Positions 18,311 through 24,143 of a stretch of 64,000 nucleotides of DNA are shown here, piece by piece. Made by a program: the position numbers and the translations under genes. Positions within the stretch are counted from its first letter, which is position 1. Every line of letters begins with the position of its first letter. Under the pieces are notes generated by a model. It was given only the letters and a program-made list of their open reading frames with translations, was not told the origin of the DNA and did not search any database. The DNA lies in assembly GCA_023212645.1 (NCBI GenBank), contig JALBYC010000005.1:310001-374000 (forward strand), given 5' to 3'. Source of the stretch: Farysia itapuensis. Lineage: Eukaryota > Basidiomycota > Ustilaginomycetes > Ustilaginales > Ustilaginaceae.

Positions 18311-19759
18311 ATGTCCGAAGGGCAACAGCGCCAATCGGCCTTGCCTGAACCACCTCGCATACAACTTGAGCTTACCACGTCCACAGTCTTCGAGAACGCG
18401 GAGCTCTCGCAATACTTTCCCTGGCTAGACAGGAGCGGACTTACCTTTGAGCCACAAACGCAAGAGACTCTGCCGGCAGAGCCGACGTTAGAAGTCGCAG
18501 ACTCGCAACAGCCGACGCTGTCCGACCCTGCGCGACCGGTTAATTCCCCTACTTCACAGAGCTGTGACCAAGACGGGGCAGAACTAAACCCTGCGAGCTC
18601 GCAGTCAGTGCCATCCTCGTACGAAGAGCATCAACAGGAACATTCGTCGTCGTTGCTTCTTCAACGACCGTCTTCCGACAAGTCAAAGGATCGAAGACTG
18701 GCCGAAAACGTTGTGGCACAGCTTCTGGTCCAGCCAGGTGTGGCTGAACCACAAGTCAATGCCGCAAATAGCTCCCAGCCTGACTATTCTGGAGATAGTG
18801 TGGCAATATTTGCCATCTTCGAGGACAAGAGACTGCCTGGCTACCATCTCTGCCCGAGTGGCACGTCCGCTGGACCATCAACACAGATTCGAGTGCCCAA
18901 ACAGCTCGTTGGATGGAAAGCCGTCTTAACAAGATCAGATGACGTCTGCAAGAAAGAAGGGCTTTTCACGATGCGACACAAGCGACACGCTTGGGAAGTG
19001 CGCCAGGAGTCGCTCAGGAATTGCTATGACTTTCGCTACGGAGCTGAAATTCAGGCCACGATGCATGGCAGCTATCGTCTGTTCAAGCACGAGTGGAGCA
19101 TAATTGTCAAGGGCGGAGGTCGGTACGTCTGGAAGATGAGCAAGAGTGAGCTCGCTCTGTATCGTGCCTTTGACCATCGCAAAGTTGCAGAATACAAAAA
19201 AGTGGTGCCAGGGAGCAAAACTTCAACAAACATGGCACTGTCTGATGCTGGCGTACAGATCGGTTGTCTTATCTGCCACGATCCCAATCACGAAGCTCAG
19301 GGCTCACTTGACTCAAGTCCCATGAATTGCGACCTTGTCGCTGCCAGTCTCGTCGCGGTCATTGCAGCTCGAGGCGGGGCTGATAACATCACAGCTGAGT
19401 TCGAGGCTTCCTCACATCCTCTACGTGACGTCTTTGAGAAGAAACAAAGGGAGCTTCAAGACCGAGAGGAAATGATGCAAGCAATGCCTCGGCCTGGCTT
19501 TGCTCGAGACGCGCAGGACGCTGAGTCTGTGCTGTCAGACACGACAGATGAAGACGGCCTGCCTTCGCCGGCGGCACAATCAACGCCACACCCTAACAAG
19601 ATATCGGCCAAAAGTCGACGAAGATTTACTTTCTTAGGTCGCAGTCCCCTTATGACCATTCAATCTGAGGCAGGTCCAGCGCTGAGTACTACTAAGACAA
19701 CACTGACTGCCTCGCAGCGTATCGTCAATCATTACCGCAGTAAAAGCACGTTGCACTAG
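18311..19759 (+). CDS. Hypothetical protein with a conserved-looking central domain (482 aa)
   Basis: I do not recognise this protein. It starts at the ATG at 18311. Residues about 1-155 are Glu/Gln/Ser-rich and probably disordered. Residues about 155-350 look folded, with alternating hydrophobic and aromatic strands (VAIFAIFED, LVGWKAVLTRSDD, GLFTMRHKRHAWEVRQE, YRLFKHEWSIIVKGGGRYVWKMS) and a later CLICHDPNHE segment. That run of beta-like strands resembles tubby-like/LURP-type or scramblase-like folds, but this is a guess from pattern only. The last 120 residues are Ser/Glu-rich with a coiled-coil-prone stretch (EKKQRELQDREEMMQ). It has no signal peptide and no membrane segment. The gene sits between NOG1 and PUT2 on the same strand. 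Confidence 0.65.
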   Translation: MSEGQQRQSALPEPPRIQLELTTSTVFENAELSQYFPWLDRSGLTFEPQTQETLPAEPTLEVADSQQPTLSDPARPVNSPTSQSCDQDGAELNPASSQSVPSSYEEHQQEHSSSLLLQRPSSDKSKDRRLAENVVAQLLVQPGVAEPQVNAANSSQPDYSGDSVAIFAIFEDKRLPGYHLCPSGTSAGPSTQIRVPKQLVGWKAVLTRSDDVCKKEGLFTMRHKRHAWEVRQESLRNCYDFRYGAEIQATMHGSYRLFKHEWSIIVKGGGRYVWKMSKSELALYRAFDHRKVAEYKKVVPGSKTSTNMALSDAGVQIGCLICHDPNHEAQGSLDSSPMNCDLVAASLVAVIAARGGADNITAEFEASSHPLRDVFEKKQRELQDREEMMQAMPRPGFARDAQDAESVLSDTTDEDGLPSPAAQSTPHPNKISAKSRRRFTFLGRSPLMTIQSEAGPALSTTKTTLTASQRIVNHYRSKSTLH

Positions 19760-19908
19760 CCAGTCGAATTGCAAAGACCCGCTGCTCCCTAGGGTGAATT
19801 CAGTAAATTGATAAACGGCAAATTGACCGGAGCTTTGTAGACTGAGCTAGAAATCAGAGTTTCCTGCTCGTGCACCTGACTCGCCTTCGAGGAAAATCGC
19901 GCTTTTTT

Positions 19909-19916
19909 TATATAAA
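19909..19916 (+). promoter_or_regulatory. TATA box and pyrimidine-rich initiator of PUT2
   Basis: TATATAAA lies 74 bp upstream of the PUT2 ATG and is followed by a C/T-rich tract (about 19943-19985) leading up to the start codon. This is the usual layout of a strongly expressed fungal promoter. There is no in-frame ATG between the TATA box and 19990. Confidence 0.7.
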
Positions 19917-19989
19917 GCCCACTTCGGCCGCTCGACATCCGCGTTTCCCCTCACCTCTACCCTCTCTCTTCTCTTGCGACTCCTTCACA

Positions 19990-21648
19990 ATGGCTGCTGT
20001 TCCACAGGCTCCCCAGATGGGGCTTTTCTCGCTCCCGCCCATCAAGAATGAGCCAATGCGGAACTACGAGCCCAAAAGCGAGGACCGCGTCAAGCTTCAG
20101 CAGGCCGTCGACGAGATGATCGCTGCCGGACCCTTTGACGTGCCCGTGGTCATCAACGGCGAAAAGATCAAGACTGGCAAGGTCAGCAAGCAGCCCAACC
20201 CCTCGAACCATGCCCAGACTCTGTGCAACTACCACGAGGCCGACGCTGCGCTCGTTGAGAAGGCGGTACAGGGCGCGCTAGAGGCCAAGAAGGCATGGGA
20301 AAACATGCCATGGAACGACCGTGCTGCCATCTTCCTCAAGGCAGCAGATCTGATTGCGTCCAAGTACCGCTACAAGGTTCTCGCTGCAACCATGTTGGGT
20401 CAAGGCAAGAATGTTTGGCAGGCCGAGATTGACGCCGCTGCGGAAATCTGCGACTTCTACCGCTTCAGTGCCAAGTACATCCAAGAGCTCTACTCTACGC
20501 AGCCACCCGAGTGCTCTGCCAACACATGGAATCGAACCGAGTACAGGCCCTTGGAAGGTTTCGTCCTGGCCGTGTCACCCTTCAACTTCCTTGCCATTGC
20601 TGCTGGCAACCTGATCTGCGCTCCGGCCATGGTCGGCAATGTCGTAGTCTGGAAGCCATCGCCCATGGCCATCTACTCCAACTATGTTGTTTACGAAATC
20701 CTGCGCGAAGCAGGTCTGCCCGACGGTGTCATTCAATTCGTGCCTGGACCTGCTGAGGAAATCGTAGGAGCCGCCATCAACCACCGAGAATTTGCTGGTC
20801 TACACTTTACAGGCTCGACACATGTCTTCCGACAGCTCTGGAAGCAGATCGGCAACAACCTTGACAAATACCGCGGTTACCCCCGTATTGTCGGTGAGAC
20901 TGGTGGCAAGAATTTCCACATGGTGCACAAGTCAGCCAATGTTGATGCTGCTGTCACGCAGTCCATCCGTGCCGCTTTCGAGTACCAGGGCCAGAAGTGC
21001 TCGGCTCTTTCCCGTCTTTATGTGCCCAAATCAATGTGGGCTGGCGAATTCAAGGAGAAGCTGCTCAAGCAGATTGCCGAGATCTCGGTCGGTCCCGTCC
21101 AGGAGTTCAAGCACTTCTGTGGTCCTGTTATTGCCAAGCACTCTTTCGAGAAGATCATTGGTCTCATCGAGGCTGCCAAGAAGGAAGGCGGCGAGGTGCT
21201 CTGTGGCGGTCAGGGCGATGATTCCAAAGGCTGGTATGTGCAGCCCACTGTCATCGAGACCAAGGACCCCAAGTCGGTGACCATGGTCAACGAAATCTTT
21301 GGTCCTGTCATCACTGTTTACGCTTATCCCGATGACGAGTTCGAAAAGACCTGCGAGCTGATTGACTCTACCACCGAGTACGCTCTGACTGGCTCCATCT
21401 TCTCGGCCGACCGATACGCTCTGATCAAGGCCAGCAACTTGCTGCGAAATGCTTCCGGTATGATGTACTACAACGACAAGTGCACAGGTGCTGTTGTTGG
21501 TCAGCAACCATTCGGAGGTGCGCGAGCTTCAGGCACCAACGACAAGGCTGGTTCCATTTCGATCTTCTACCGCTTTGTGTCTGCACGAACGATCAAGGAG
21601 ACGACCATTGATCCTGCCACTCACATTTACCCATCCAACCTGGAGTAA
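19990..21648 (+). CDS. PUT2: Delta-1-pyrroline-5-carboxylate dehydrogenase
   Basis: This NAD-dependent aldehyde dehydrogenase converts pyrroline-5-carboxylate / glutamate semialdehyde to glutamate, the second step of proline catabolism, in mitochondria. The 552-aa product shows the ALDH fold with the P5CDH-specific sequence FVLAVSPFNFLAIAAGNL, the general-base Glu in VGETGGKN (about residue 303) and the nucleophile Cys in YQGQKCSA (about 337). It also shows NEIFGPVITVY and the C-terminal QQPFGGARASGTNDKAG. The N-terminus from the ATG at 19990 is short and not a clear presequence. The frame is open upstream to 19870 and that extension is Arg/Ser/Pro-rich, but it has only a GTG start and overlaps the TATA box. 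The region downstream carries unusual hairpins (see the separate entries). Confidence 0.96.
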   Translation: MAAVPQAPQMGLFSLPPIKNEPMRNYEPKSEDRVKLQQAVDEMIAAGPFDVPVVINGEKIKTGKVSKQPNPSNHAQTLCNYHEADAALVEKAVQGALEAKKAWENMPWNDRAAIFLKAADLIASKYRYKVLAATMLGQGKNVWQAEIDAAAEICDFYRFSAKYIQELYSTQPPECSANTWNRTEYRPLEGFVLAVSPFNFLAIAAGNLICAPAMVGNVVVWKPSPMAIYSNYVVYEILREAGLPDGVIQFVPGPAEEIVGAAINHREFAGLHFTGSTHVFRQLWKQIGNNLDKYRGYPRIVGETGGKNFHMVHKSANVDAAVTQSIRAAFEYQGQKCSALSRLYVPKSMWAGEFKEKLLKQIAEISVGPVQEFKHFCGPVIAKHSFEKIIGLIEAAKKEGGEVLCGGQGDDSKGWYVQPTVIETKDPKSVTMVNEIFGPVITVYAYPDDEFEKTCELIDSTTEYALTGSIFSADRYALIKASNLLRNASGMMYYNDKCTGAVVGQQPFGGARASGTNDKAGSISIFYRFVSARTIKETTIDPATHIYPSNLE

Positions 21649-21729
21649 GAAGAAGTTCCGCTTCTCTATACCCGACCAGCTCCATATCCGCATCAGCATT
21701 TTCTCTCATGTACTTGTTCCATTGCGCGT

Positions 21730-21754
21730 GGGGGCCGCACTTAACACTGCCCCC
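21730..21754 (+). ncRNA. Hairpin copy 1 of a repeated 3'-region element
   Basis: A perfect 6-bp stem, GGGGGC (21730-21735) with GCCCCC (21749-21754), encloses the 13-nt loop CGCACTTAACACT. The stem is preceded by GCGCGT. It lies 82 bp after the PUT2 stop, so it probably belongs to the PUT2 3'UTR. The loop recurs in two further hairpins whose stems have a different sequence. Confidence 0.7.
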
Positions 21755-21789
21755 TTTCTTCCGTCTCGATCCTTGCACAACAAGCGCGT

Positions 21790-21812
21790 AGGGCCGCTCT
21801 TAACACTGCCCT
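21790..21812 (+). ncRNA. Hairpin copy 2 of a repeated 3'-region element
   Basis: A perfect 5-bp stem, AGGGC (21790-21794) with GCCCT (21808-21812), encloses the 13-nt loop CGCTCTTAACACT. It is preceded by GCGCGT as in copy 1. It starts 60 bp downstream of copy 1. Confidence 0.7.
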
Positions 21813-21855
21813 CTTGTTCTTTGGCCCACAATATACCTGGATTTGATGAAGCGCG

Positions 21856-21880
21856 GCGAGGCGCCGTTAACACTCCTCGC
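21856..21880 (+). ncRNA. Hairpin copy 3 of a repeated 3'-region element
   Basis: A perfect 6-bp stem, GCGAGG (21856-21861) with CCTCGC (21875-21880), encloses the 13-nt loop CGCCGTTAACACT. It is preceded by GCGCG. It starts 66 bp downstream of copy 2. Its stem has no sequence in common with copies 1 and 2 yet pairs perfectly. Confidence 0.7.
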
Positions 21881-22019
21881 ATCCCCGACCTTCCGCACGT
21901 TACTTGCATCTGCATATCTCTGTACTCGTATCTCTTTCTTCTCCTGTCAAATCTAGGACAATTTATTCCAGCTCTTCGTGTGGTGATCCCGGTAGACAGC
22001 TCTTGTGTGTCCCAGTCCA

Positions 22020-22040
22020 GATCGTGCGAGACGCACGATC
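22020..22040. other. Perfect 9-bp inverted repeat with a 3-nt loop
   Basis: GATCGTGCG and CGCACGATC flank the triloop AGA. It sits between the PUT2 hairpin array and the convergent LSM3 gene. It could be a terminator-like or RNA-stability hairpin in either 3'UTR, or a palindromic protein site. Confidence 0.55.
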
Positions 22041-22397
22041 GTCTCCCTCCACTCCTCGAGCCCCTTCCTCTTCCGGCGTGCATGTAGGCCCCTTGTCCCA
22101 TAAAAGGCTTAGAGATGGCGCAAGACTGCACATTCTTTCATTACTCAAATTCTGTCCCTCCTCTTTACTGTGCTTGCGTGCCATACCTTTTATAATGTAT
22201 AGCTCCCGGTCCTTTCCCAGGCTCGATGCCTGCATCGAGTCTATATGTTACGTATGTAGACATTACGCGAAGACATCTGCCGTACTCCTCTCGCCCAGCC
22301 AATGCCTTCCGCCTGCCTCTGCCTTCATTCCGTGACACTGTGCTTCTGGCCAATGAGCCCGTTTTCAATAATTGCAATTGAGGTTGGGAAATGTCCT

Positions 22398-22916
22398 TCA
22401 TACTCTTGATGGTGGGGATACCTAGTGTACGGGACCATTATTTGGTGTGAGCAAGTAAAAGACGGAAATGAGGGAACTTGCGAGCAACTTACCAGGATTA
22501 CACTGTCGCCACGAACAAACAGCATCTCACTCTGTCTCTTTACAAGCTGTGCAACACATGTATGATTAGCAAGACTGGAACAGTGGGCTGACAAGCGCGG
22601 AAGGACATACCCTGACGCTTTCCTTGCCAGTTTCTTCGTTCACATCTACAACGTAAATGGTTTCTTCCACATCCCCCAGAATGAGATTCATGTGACCATC
22701 ATACGCCTAATGGAACAGCAGATTGTCGTCAGTACAGTGTAGGTTGATGCAAGAGATGTGCGTACGTACATGGAGAGTGCCCCGAAGTTCGCGGTCGCCG
22801 CGTAGTTTTACATAGACACGTTCCGAGATACTGAGTCTGATGAGGTCAAATGGCTCAGCGACGCCAACTGCTGCTGGTGATGGCGACGCTGCTGAGGCTG
22901 TATTGACCTCTGCCAT
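22398..22916 (-). CDS. LSM3: U6 snRNA-associated Sm-like protein LSm3 (106 aa, 4 exons)
   Basis: LSm3 is part of the LSm1-7 ring (mRNA decapping, cytoplasm) and the LSm2-8 ring (U6 snRNA, nucleus). Four exons join cleanly: 22916..22770, 22706..22611, 22546..22493 and 22421..22398, with introns of 63, 64 and 71 bp that have GTACGT, GTATGT and GTAAGT donors. All junctions are phase 0. The product shows the Sm1 block ([29 protein letters not shown]), then [16 protein letters not shown] and the Sm2 block [12 protein letters not shown], ending VSPPSRV. The first 20 residues are an Ala/Ser-rich extension. Three introns in a 106-codon gene contrasts with the intronless neighbours. Its start is 186 bp from that of the divergent uL5m gene. 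Confidence 0.95.
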
Positions 22917-23102
22917 GATTGTGCGAGATGTCTGTGGTGGTCAGAGAGCGATGGCAGAGTTGAGCGAAACGTCAAAGTGAGAATCAAGTGACTCGTACGA
23001 TAAATTGTCACACGACCTGCAAAAGGCGTAGGAAGAAAAGAGAAAAATATCGCCGTTCGTGCTTCTCGCAACATCTTCCGTCAGCCATCTGGTTCGTCAA
23101 CG

Positions 23103-24143
23103 ATGCTGCGACACTCTGCGACGGTGGTTTCTGCGGCTCGCAGACCGACAGCATCCGCGTCGACCTCTTCCGTCGTGCGCTCCACCAGACATGCTTCGAC
23201 CAAGAGGATTGGGAAAACAAACGGGCCATTGCCCAATCAACCCCCCTCATCGAGAATGCGACTGCGTGAGTATCCCGTCGTCATTGGACCCAGACAGCTC
23301 AATCGCAATCAAGAGTTCTATCGAACTCTGTCAACCGACCTTCTCTACATGACCTACAATCCTGGACTTAATCTCAAAGACTCTACATCATCCCCCCTGG
23401 ACGACATACTCGCACGTAATTCGAAAGAGCGTGAATGGGACCCGACAAGTCCCTACTCCGTGAACAGACCTAAAAGACCATCAAAGGGTACACGTCCCAC
23501 GAAGCAGGCCGCCAAGCCTATTCATGAGGGCAAGACATTACAAGGCTTGCCACGGTTGGAGCGGATCGTGCTCACCAGCTTCTCGCGAGACGCCATTGGC
23601 AACAAAAACGCACTCGTACCACTTTTGGCGCAATTCCAGGCAATTACAGGCCTGTCTGTCAAAGGTAGCTTTGCGGATCCGGCTGTTGCTCTCATTCATG
23701 CCGCCTCGCCCCGATCGTATACCAACAGAGGCTACGTCGAGGTCATTCGCTCCAAGGGGGGAGCTGCTAAGTTCAAGTTGCGTGCCGGTATGGCGATCGG
23801 CGTCAAAGCCGTGCTTCCAGGTCCGCTTGCTCATGATTTCCTCGAAACGCTCGTCACATTTGTCCTACCGCGCTTGAGAAGCTTTACCGGTTTCACTCTG
23901 CCTCCCCCATCACAACTATTGTCATCGCCCTCGGAGCATTCGGGTGTCGTCTCCTTAGGCTTTGTCCCAGACGCTGTTCCGCTATTCCCTCAGATTGAAG
24001 TGAACCAGGATCAGTACCCAAACAGACCACTCGGTTTCCAGGTCGACTGTATCACCAATTTGCGTGGCAAGCACGCCACAAGAAACGCTCGGATCCTCCT
24101 CTCCGGCCTTGGTGTTCCCTTCGTACGACGTAATGACGTCTGA
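23103..24143 (+). CDS. MRPL7: Mitochondrial large-subunit ribosomal protein uL5m
   Basis: This is the mitochondrial homologue of bacterial L5, which binds 5S-like/central protuberance rRNA in the large subunit. The 346-aa product begins with an Arg/Ser/Ala-rich presequence (MLRHSATVVSAARRPTASAS). The L5 core is visible in the second half: GLPRLERIVLTSF, QAITGLSVKGSFADP, RGYVEVIRSKGGAAKFKLRAGMAIG split over two strands, DFLETLVTFVLPRLRSFTGF, SLGFVPDAVPLFPQIE and LLSGLGVPFVR at the C-terminus. The region before the core (residues 60-150) is a fungal mitochondrial extension. The gene is divergent from LSM3 with a 186-bp spacer. Confidence 0.9.
   Translation: MLRHSATVVSAARRPTASASTSSVVRSTRHASTKRIGKTNGPLPNQPPSSRMRLREYPVVIGPRQLNRNQEFYRTLSTDLLYMTYNPGLNLKDSTSSPLDDILARNSKEREWDPTSPYSVNRPKRPSKGTRPTKQAAKPIHEGKTLQGLPRLERIVLTSFSRDAIGNKNALVPLLAQFQAITGLSVKGSFADPAVALIHAASPRSYTNRGYVEVIRSKGGAAKFKLRAGMAIGVKAVLPGPLAHDFLETLVTFVLPRLRSFTGFTLPPPSQLLSSPSEHSGVVSLGFVPDAVPLFPQIEVNQDQYPNRPLGFQVDCITNLRGKHATRNARILLSGLGVPFVRRNDV

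Follow-up and report, generated by a model that had tools for sequence, protein, structure and literature searches.

Three repeats behind PUT2

The stretch of Farysia itapuensis DNA considered here (64,000 nucleotides, the window in what follows) raises the question of why three short sequences that share one constant segment and differ in their stems should stand in a row after the stop codon of a gene of proline breakdown, and of what might read them. The gene is PUT2, the product of which scored 770.6 bits against the equivalog model TIGR01236 (cut-off 613.6) and also matched PF00171, and whose closest relatives stand at 94% for the nearest, 85% for Thecaphora frezii and 78% for Violaceomyces palustris, so that the lineage is smut-like. 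The frame is listed from a GTG, the real start possibly lying further in, and ends with a TAA at 21646-21648. The copies lie downstream of PUT2 and short of a convergent gene on the minus strand, the end of which is near 22400. Their positions and parts, in which S1 and S2 are the two predicted stems and L1 and L3 the loops, are as follows.

19870..21648, plus strand: PUT2, delta-1-pyrroline-5-carboxylate (glutamate semialdehyde) dehydrogenase, from TIGR01236, PF00171 and named relatives
21723..21754, plus strand: predicted pseudoknot copy PUT2-1, +75..+106 from the PUT2 stop; S1 TGCG/CGCA, L1 CGT, S2 GGGGGC/GCCCCC, L3 CTTAACACT
21783..21812, plus strand: predicted pseudoknot copy PUT2-2, +135..+164 from the PUT2 stop; S1 AGCG/CGCT, L1 CGT, S2 AGGGC/GCCCT, L3 CTTAACACT
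21850..21880, plus strand: predicted pseudoknot copy PUT2-3, +202..+232 from the PUT2 stop; S1 GCG/CGC (outer A and C unpaired), L1 CG, S2 GCGAGG/CCTCGC, L3 GTTAACACT
22401..22916, minus strand: short convergent gene with an intron, its exons by eye of LSm/Sm type, perhaps LSm3

The original prediction had seen three tandem hairpins, each with a complementary stem around a loop of 13 nt, preceded by GCGCG and placed 80-230 bp after the PUT2 stop. All three stems with the 13-nt spacing (segments 21736-21748, 21795-21807 and 21862-21874) and the upstream GCGCG were found on the plus strand, and the claim that the window holds no further copy was borne out by exact matching and by a descriptor allowing up to two loop mismatches with CG required, each of which returned these same three. 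The placement was right as well, except that the copies, which span +75..+232, begin further upstream than had been supposed, because the bases that open the "loop" have their partners there. A 199-aa open frame (21488-22087, plus strand), in a reading frame other than that of PUT2, overlaps the last part of the gene and crosses all three copies. A coding reading was rejected because the copies are spaced by 59 and 67, which puts them out of a common frame; stops are rare here because the region is poor in G, and the open frame probably owes its existence to a strand with little G and many pyrimidines.

Fold of the element

Taken as simple hairpins on the sense strand the copies were no more stable than shuffled sequences (z 0.24, -0.18 and -0.12), the whole PUT2 3' region compared with its shuffles was likewise without energy signal (z 0.29), and a hairpin leaves unexplained both the constant GCG upstream and the constant CGC that opens the loop. 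In the PUT2 copies these two are complementary, and the base that precedes the GCG changes together with the loop base that follows the CGC (T-A in copy 1, A-T in copy 2), though not in copy 3. The hairpin model was therefore given up, and each copy, 29-32 nt long, is most likely better described as a compact pseudoknot of the H type, in which the order is S1 (4 bp), L1 (CG plus 0-2 nt), S2 (5-6 bp), S1', L3 (9 nt, VUUAACACY) and S2', with S2 and S1' abutting without a base between them. The stems and the constant loop sequence of the original prediction thus stand, but its open 13-nt loop gives way to the more likely pseudoknot, and the GCGCG before each copy, which is present as described, is now read as a pairing strand plus loop L1.

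What was found by sequence and covariation is a pair of crossing helices, both paired, with a short L1 and a longer L3, as in an H-type pseudoknot. From what is generally known of groove-spanning lengths in such folds, L1 should be able to span the 5-6 bp of deep groove and L3 should be ample to cross 4 bp. A rough energy count, with assumed values for the stack energies and the pseudoknot penalty, placed the knot below the best nested fold in all six copies, namely the three of PUT2 and three more that are described below (knot/nested: -16.2/-10.8, -11.2/-6.0, -11.7/-8.7, -11.0/-8.1, -8.8/-7.2 and -6.7/-3.4 kcal/mol). Since a covariance model cannot represent a pseudoknot, searches were made with patterns and a descriptor script. 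The architecture alone (loop-blind, Watson-Crick pairs, S1 of at least 3) occurs in the window at eight places on the plus strand, three of which are the PUT2 copies, and at two on the minus strand.

A second site at PUT1

Relaxed patterns run over the genome (up to three mismatches) listed C53:274196-274219 and C53:274143-274167, both on the minus strand and both directly downstream of PUT1, the sole proline dehydrogenase gene from the family search with PF01619 (152.8 bits for its open frame). Between them PUT1 and PUT2 carry out both steps of proline breakdown, and here they lie on different contigs. A third PUT1 copy came from the list of CG-N9..12-VTTAACAC places. As the model had been drawn from PUT2 alone before PUT1 was found, PUT1 is a test of the pseudoknot and not a fit to it. 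The copies, on the minus strand of the PUT1 locus (L032), are these.

L032 1384-1354, minus strand (sense to PUT1): predicted pseudoknot copy PUT1-1, +39..+69 after the PUT1 stop
L032 1332-1302, minus strand (sense to PUT1): predicted pseudoknot copy PUT1-2, +91..+121 after the PUT1 stop
L032 1198-1170, minus strand (sense to PUT1): predicted pseudoknot copy PUT1-3, +225..+253 after the PUT1 stop

Divided into the parts given above, the first two read GGCA CG GTGCCT TGCC ATTAACACC AGGCAC and GGCA CGGC CGCCT TGCC ATTAACACC AGGCG, with perfect stems in which the GCG/CGC of PUT2 is replaced by GCA/TGC. The third, AGGC CG GTCAA GCCT CTTAACACT TTGAC, has new sequence in both helices, both of them perfectly paired. 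With the PUT2 3' region as query, a search at the DNA level returned nothing but that region itself.

All six copies, three at each gene, are sense-oriented and 3' of the stop. A CATAAA at 22099 downstream of the PUT2 copies and an AATAAA 97 nt past the third PUT1 copy are compatible with the copies lying inside both mRNAs, and the copy region is presumably transcribed. A 3'UTR element of PUT2, which had been proposed as plausible, continues to be the best reading of the sequence, and PUT1 carries a triple element of the same kind. Beyond PUT1, and with the same orientation, comes a myo-inositol oxygenase gene (L032:3-803, minus strand; PF05153, 282.1 bits), so that PUT1-3 also lies upstream of that gene.

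Covariation and conservation

Covariation over the six copies was counted on sequences trimmed to equal length, MAFFT having misplaced PUT1-3 when given the full copies. From the PUT2 copies alone the covariation of S2 is suggestive: 17 of 18 stem cells pair and three pairs are changed on both sides, a result reached by 11-27 of 500 shuffles, depending on the measure. When S1 is added 28 of the 30 cells are paired, and 3 to 13 of 500 shuffles reach as much. Over the six copies 53 of 54 pair cells are paired, every one of them Watson-Crick, with changes on both sides in eight of the nine pairs and 22 compensatory cells; on each of five measures none of 500 shuffles does as well, where it is to be borne in mind that the shuffles ignore kinship and that PUT1-1 and PUT1-2 are close. 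Sliding the partners against each other lowers the pairing of the six copies to 33-53%. The compensatory stem changes, which extend to the PUT1 copies, uphold the earlier view that the structure is kept and not the sequence of the stems.

Invariant over all six copies are the CG of L1, the TTAACAC of L3 (UUAACAC in RNA) and the second pair of S1 (G-C). The 20-nt flanks, unlike these constant loops, are near chance, agreeing at 2-10 of 20 positions among the 15 copy pairs (mean 5.4 on either side), the value of 10 being reached only upstream of PUT1-1 and PUT1-2. It is nearly certain, in our judgement, that the copies represent a real and selected structural element, in one species so far.

The lack of any G-U among the 53 pairs is somewhat unusual for RNA, and exclusively Watson-Crick pairing is what DNA would need. 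An element acting at the level of DNA, either a cruciform or a transcription-factor site common to both loci, has therefore to be weighed. In yeast the use of proline is controlled by the DNA-binding activator Put3, and the Put3 pattern, CGGN10CCG, was not found in the PUT2 3' region. A site in double-stranded DNA has no need of stems that change in step, crossing helices do not make a cruciform, and the uniform sense orientation 3' of the stop also argues against a DNA element, which we consider very unlikely.

Occurrence in the genome and chance controls

In the 13.7-Mb assembly CGCNSTTAACACT is matched exactly at three positions, every one of them in the PUT2 3' region. With up to one mismatch and any two middle bases CGCNNTTAACACT was found at 112 places, as against 255 for the reversed control, and other loop-word patterns were not enriched over their reversed forms either (71 vs 141; 78 vs 127; 63 vs 265; 9 vs 24). 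The loop word is no genome-wide repeat, and because loop words are not enriched the case is built on pairing and not on counts of words. That TTAACAC words should be rarer than the reversed patterns (112 vs 255 and 63 vs 265) is likely a matter of composition. Stems measure 6, 5 and 6 bp in the PUT2 copies and at most 2 bp at all of the 27 other places among the 30 inspected out of 112.

Restricting the pattern to the form with the invariant G-C pair left nine places in the assembly (24 in the reversed control). Six of these are the PUT copies, and of the three that remain, two are unable to form S1, judged by their letters. The third, G000:C18:106992-107013, has CG and TTAACAC and could form S1 if one G-U is admitted, but the last base of its L3 is G. 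In the list of CG-N9..12-VTTAACAC places, 63 rows long, eight rows fall at PUT1 or PUT2 and 55 elsewhere (52 separate places); by eye none is found less than 5 kb from P5C reductase, ornithine aminotransferase or any of 15 amino-acid permease places. Among the places judged, those with G-C as the second pair of S1, it appears that PUT1 and PUT2 alone carry the element.

A simulation with the neighbour frequencies of the window produced 424 loop words and no full descriptor in 40 million strand-bases, with which the genome, at about 27.4 million strand-bases, may be compared. In pieces of the organism's own genome (351,389 bases including the window) the descriptor with loop mismatches allowed matched the six copies only, and a looser scan (up to three loop mismatches, S2 of at least 4, CG optional) added two weak extras with three mismatches each, one antisense near PUT2 and one within the PUT1 coding frame. 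Scans of prokaryote and viral loci gave, among the matches listed, 154 motif matches (127 + 27), a single one of which had a stem of at least 5; this match, in Devosia sp. (L179), has the whole descriptor including S1, with four of its seven S2 pairs G-U. When loop mismatches were allowed the prokaryote loci (910,398 bases) yielded three more descriptor matches (one with one mismatch and two with two), and the viral loci (206,575 bases) yielded none. The prokaryote matches are taken as chance.

These controls bear on whether the copies could have arisen by chance, by recent tandem duplication or as a mobile mini-element without function. In favour of such an origin, PUT1-1 and PUT1-2 are close copies, both preceded by ATACCC. 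Against it stand the simulation and the divergence of the stems with compensation, and a mobile element would be expected to be scattered, whereas the judged exact and near forms sit at two genes of one pathway. The probability of such an origin seems to us negligible.

A putative signal for joint control

The sense position after the stop, the sharp limits, the free stems and the rigid loops favour an RNA that is read as a shape together with a UUAACAC strand, and since the judged copies mark only the two genes of proline breakdown the reader would be specific to the pathway. Because proteins are the usual readers of 3'UTR elements in eukaryotes, a protein is rated highest as the reader. The PUT1 and PUT2 proteins themselves would be among the candidates, bacterial PutA being a regulator of its own genes. 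Both mRNAs would then carry compact H-type pseudoknots in their putative 3'UTRs, L1 spanning the deep groove of S2 and L3 (V-UUAACAC-Y) lying along S1 as the part that is read, and with three copies per mRNA the site may be multivalent. A single trans-acting factor, for which an RNA-binding protein is the likeliest candidate, would recognise the knot and control the stability or the translation of the PUT1 and PUT2 mRNAs jointly, with the consequence that both steps of the pathway would rise and fall together. Whether a selected RNA element in both 3'UTRs does serve one such factor in the co-control of the two mRNAs is, as we see it, evenly balanced. An RNA regulon is marked by one element that recurs on several functionally related mRNAs, and PUT1 and PUT2, with three predicted copies each, would answer that description.

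This amounts to sequence evidence for a pathway-specific layer of RNA control in a fungus, and it points to an undescribed RNA signal that may control both genes of proline breakdown together. A 30-nt bait of which there are six natural variants would bring its own controls to a search for the binder, and if the binder is a protein the result would be a structured-RNA regulon with a clear output, namely proline as a source of nitrogen and carbon.

Relation to known RNAs

Rfam release 15 (4227 models) gave no match at gathering thresholds in the window or in L032, the model of the TPP riboswitch included. The best sub-threshold match in 19000-24000, L20_leader over 21641-21768 (26.1 bits vs 58.7, E 0.053), is taken as chance, and the element meets the thresholds of no described family tested. 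No such element was found in the main texts of the open-licence literature searched. The words proline, pyrroline, pseudoknot and Ustilag are absent from the text of one survey (PMC8216456), and in another (PMC5640933) proline, pyrroline and Ustilag are absent and pseudoknot occurs twice, for the HDV ribozyme.

Stable knots in tandem within a 3'UTR could also act without any specific reader, as a mechanical block that halts a 5'-3' or a 3'-5' exonuclease and stabilises the mRNAs or a 3'UTR fragment, and the predicted advantage of the knot over nested folds in six of six copies would suit such a role. A block leaves unexplained, however, why PUT1 and PUT2 should be the genes marked and why seven loop bases should be invariant, and PUT1-3 is weak for the purpose at -6.7 kcal/mol. 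The exonuclease-resistant RNA of flaviviruses is a three-way junction that forms a ring about the 5' end; that ring fold is absent here, the element having two helices and no Rfam match. A mechanical block is accordingly improbable in our view. In arrangement the element resembles the upstream pseudoknot domain of tobamoviruses, in which three H-type pseudoknots also stand in a row in a 3'UTR, but those knots are viral and directly stacked, whereas the PUT knots are 21-103 nt apart and belong to two cellular mRNAs.

Each knot might instead act as a small aptamer whose ligand is proline, P5C or some other metabolite of the pathway, in other words as a eukaryotic riboswitch, the tandem triple giving a steeper response and binding locking the knot so that the 3'UTR is protected or exposed. 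The restriction of the element, among the places judged, to the two catabolic genes of one pathway would fit a sensor, as would the combination of variable stems with rigid loops, and among the known aptamer folds are small H-type pseudoknots whose third loop is invariant. The preQ1-I and SAM-II riboswitches, like the element, have two short coaxial helices, a short L1 and a longer constant L3, but they are bacterial 5'UTR elements with other constant bases. For an amino-acid aptamer a length of 29-32 nt would be short, and nothing was recognised as an expression platform. The portion of PMC8216456 consulted names a single class of eukaryotic riboswitch, TPP, and in it two fungal 3'UTR candidates on amino-acid or folate genes bound none of the ligands tried. 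We regard a metabolite sensor as somewhat unlikely, and its specific form, in which the knots are proline or P5C aptamers, three to a gene on both genes of the sensed pathway, and so constitute a eukaryotic amino-acid riboswitch class other than TPP, as more doubtful again. Were the binder a metabolite, it would bear on whether eukaryotes have riboswitches beyond TPP.

If the element is a signal read by a protein, as is preferred here, it would by role stand closest to structured 3'UTR regulatory elements, its predicted fold being that of an H-type pseudoknot. Gao, Jones and Rivas (2021; PMC8216456, in the portion consulted) describe 3'UTR structures of GLY1 in the Saccharomycetaceae and of MET13 in the Debaryomycetaceae/Metschnikowiaceae, which are likewise structured RNAs on fungal genes of small-molecule metabolism known by their compensatory changes. 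They differ from the PUT element in that GLY1 is a multi-stem junction and MET13 one short hairpin, both from comparison across species, whereas the PUT element is a predicted pseudoknot that each of the two genes of a pathway carries in triplicate, and it is known so far from a single species. An element of smut fungi would have escaped that survey, as the five query genomes given there are ascomycetes. Closer in lineage is the Khd4 regulon of Ustilago maydis, in which, according to the part of PMC10688622 consulted, AUACCC is a 3'UTR decay motif of membrane-trafficking mRNAs. There co-controlled smut mRNAs are marked by a 3'UTR element, as the PUT mRNAs would be, but the Khd4 motif is short and linear, unlike the PUT element, and no pseudoknot is described in that part, the word being absent from the text. 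ATACCC occurs 15 times in the window, both strands counted, and once after PUT2 (21668-21673, plus strand); after PUT1 it occurs twice, immediately ahead of PUT1-1 and of PUT1-2 (1390-1385 and 1338-1333 on the minus strand of L032).
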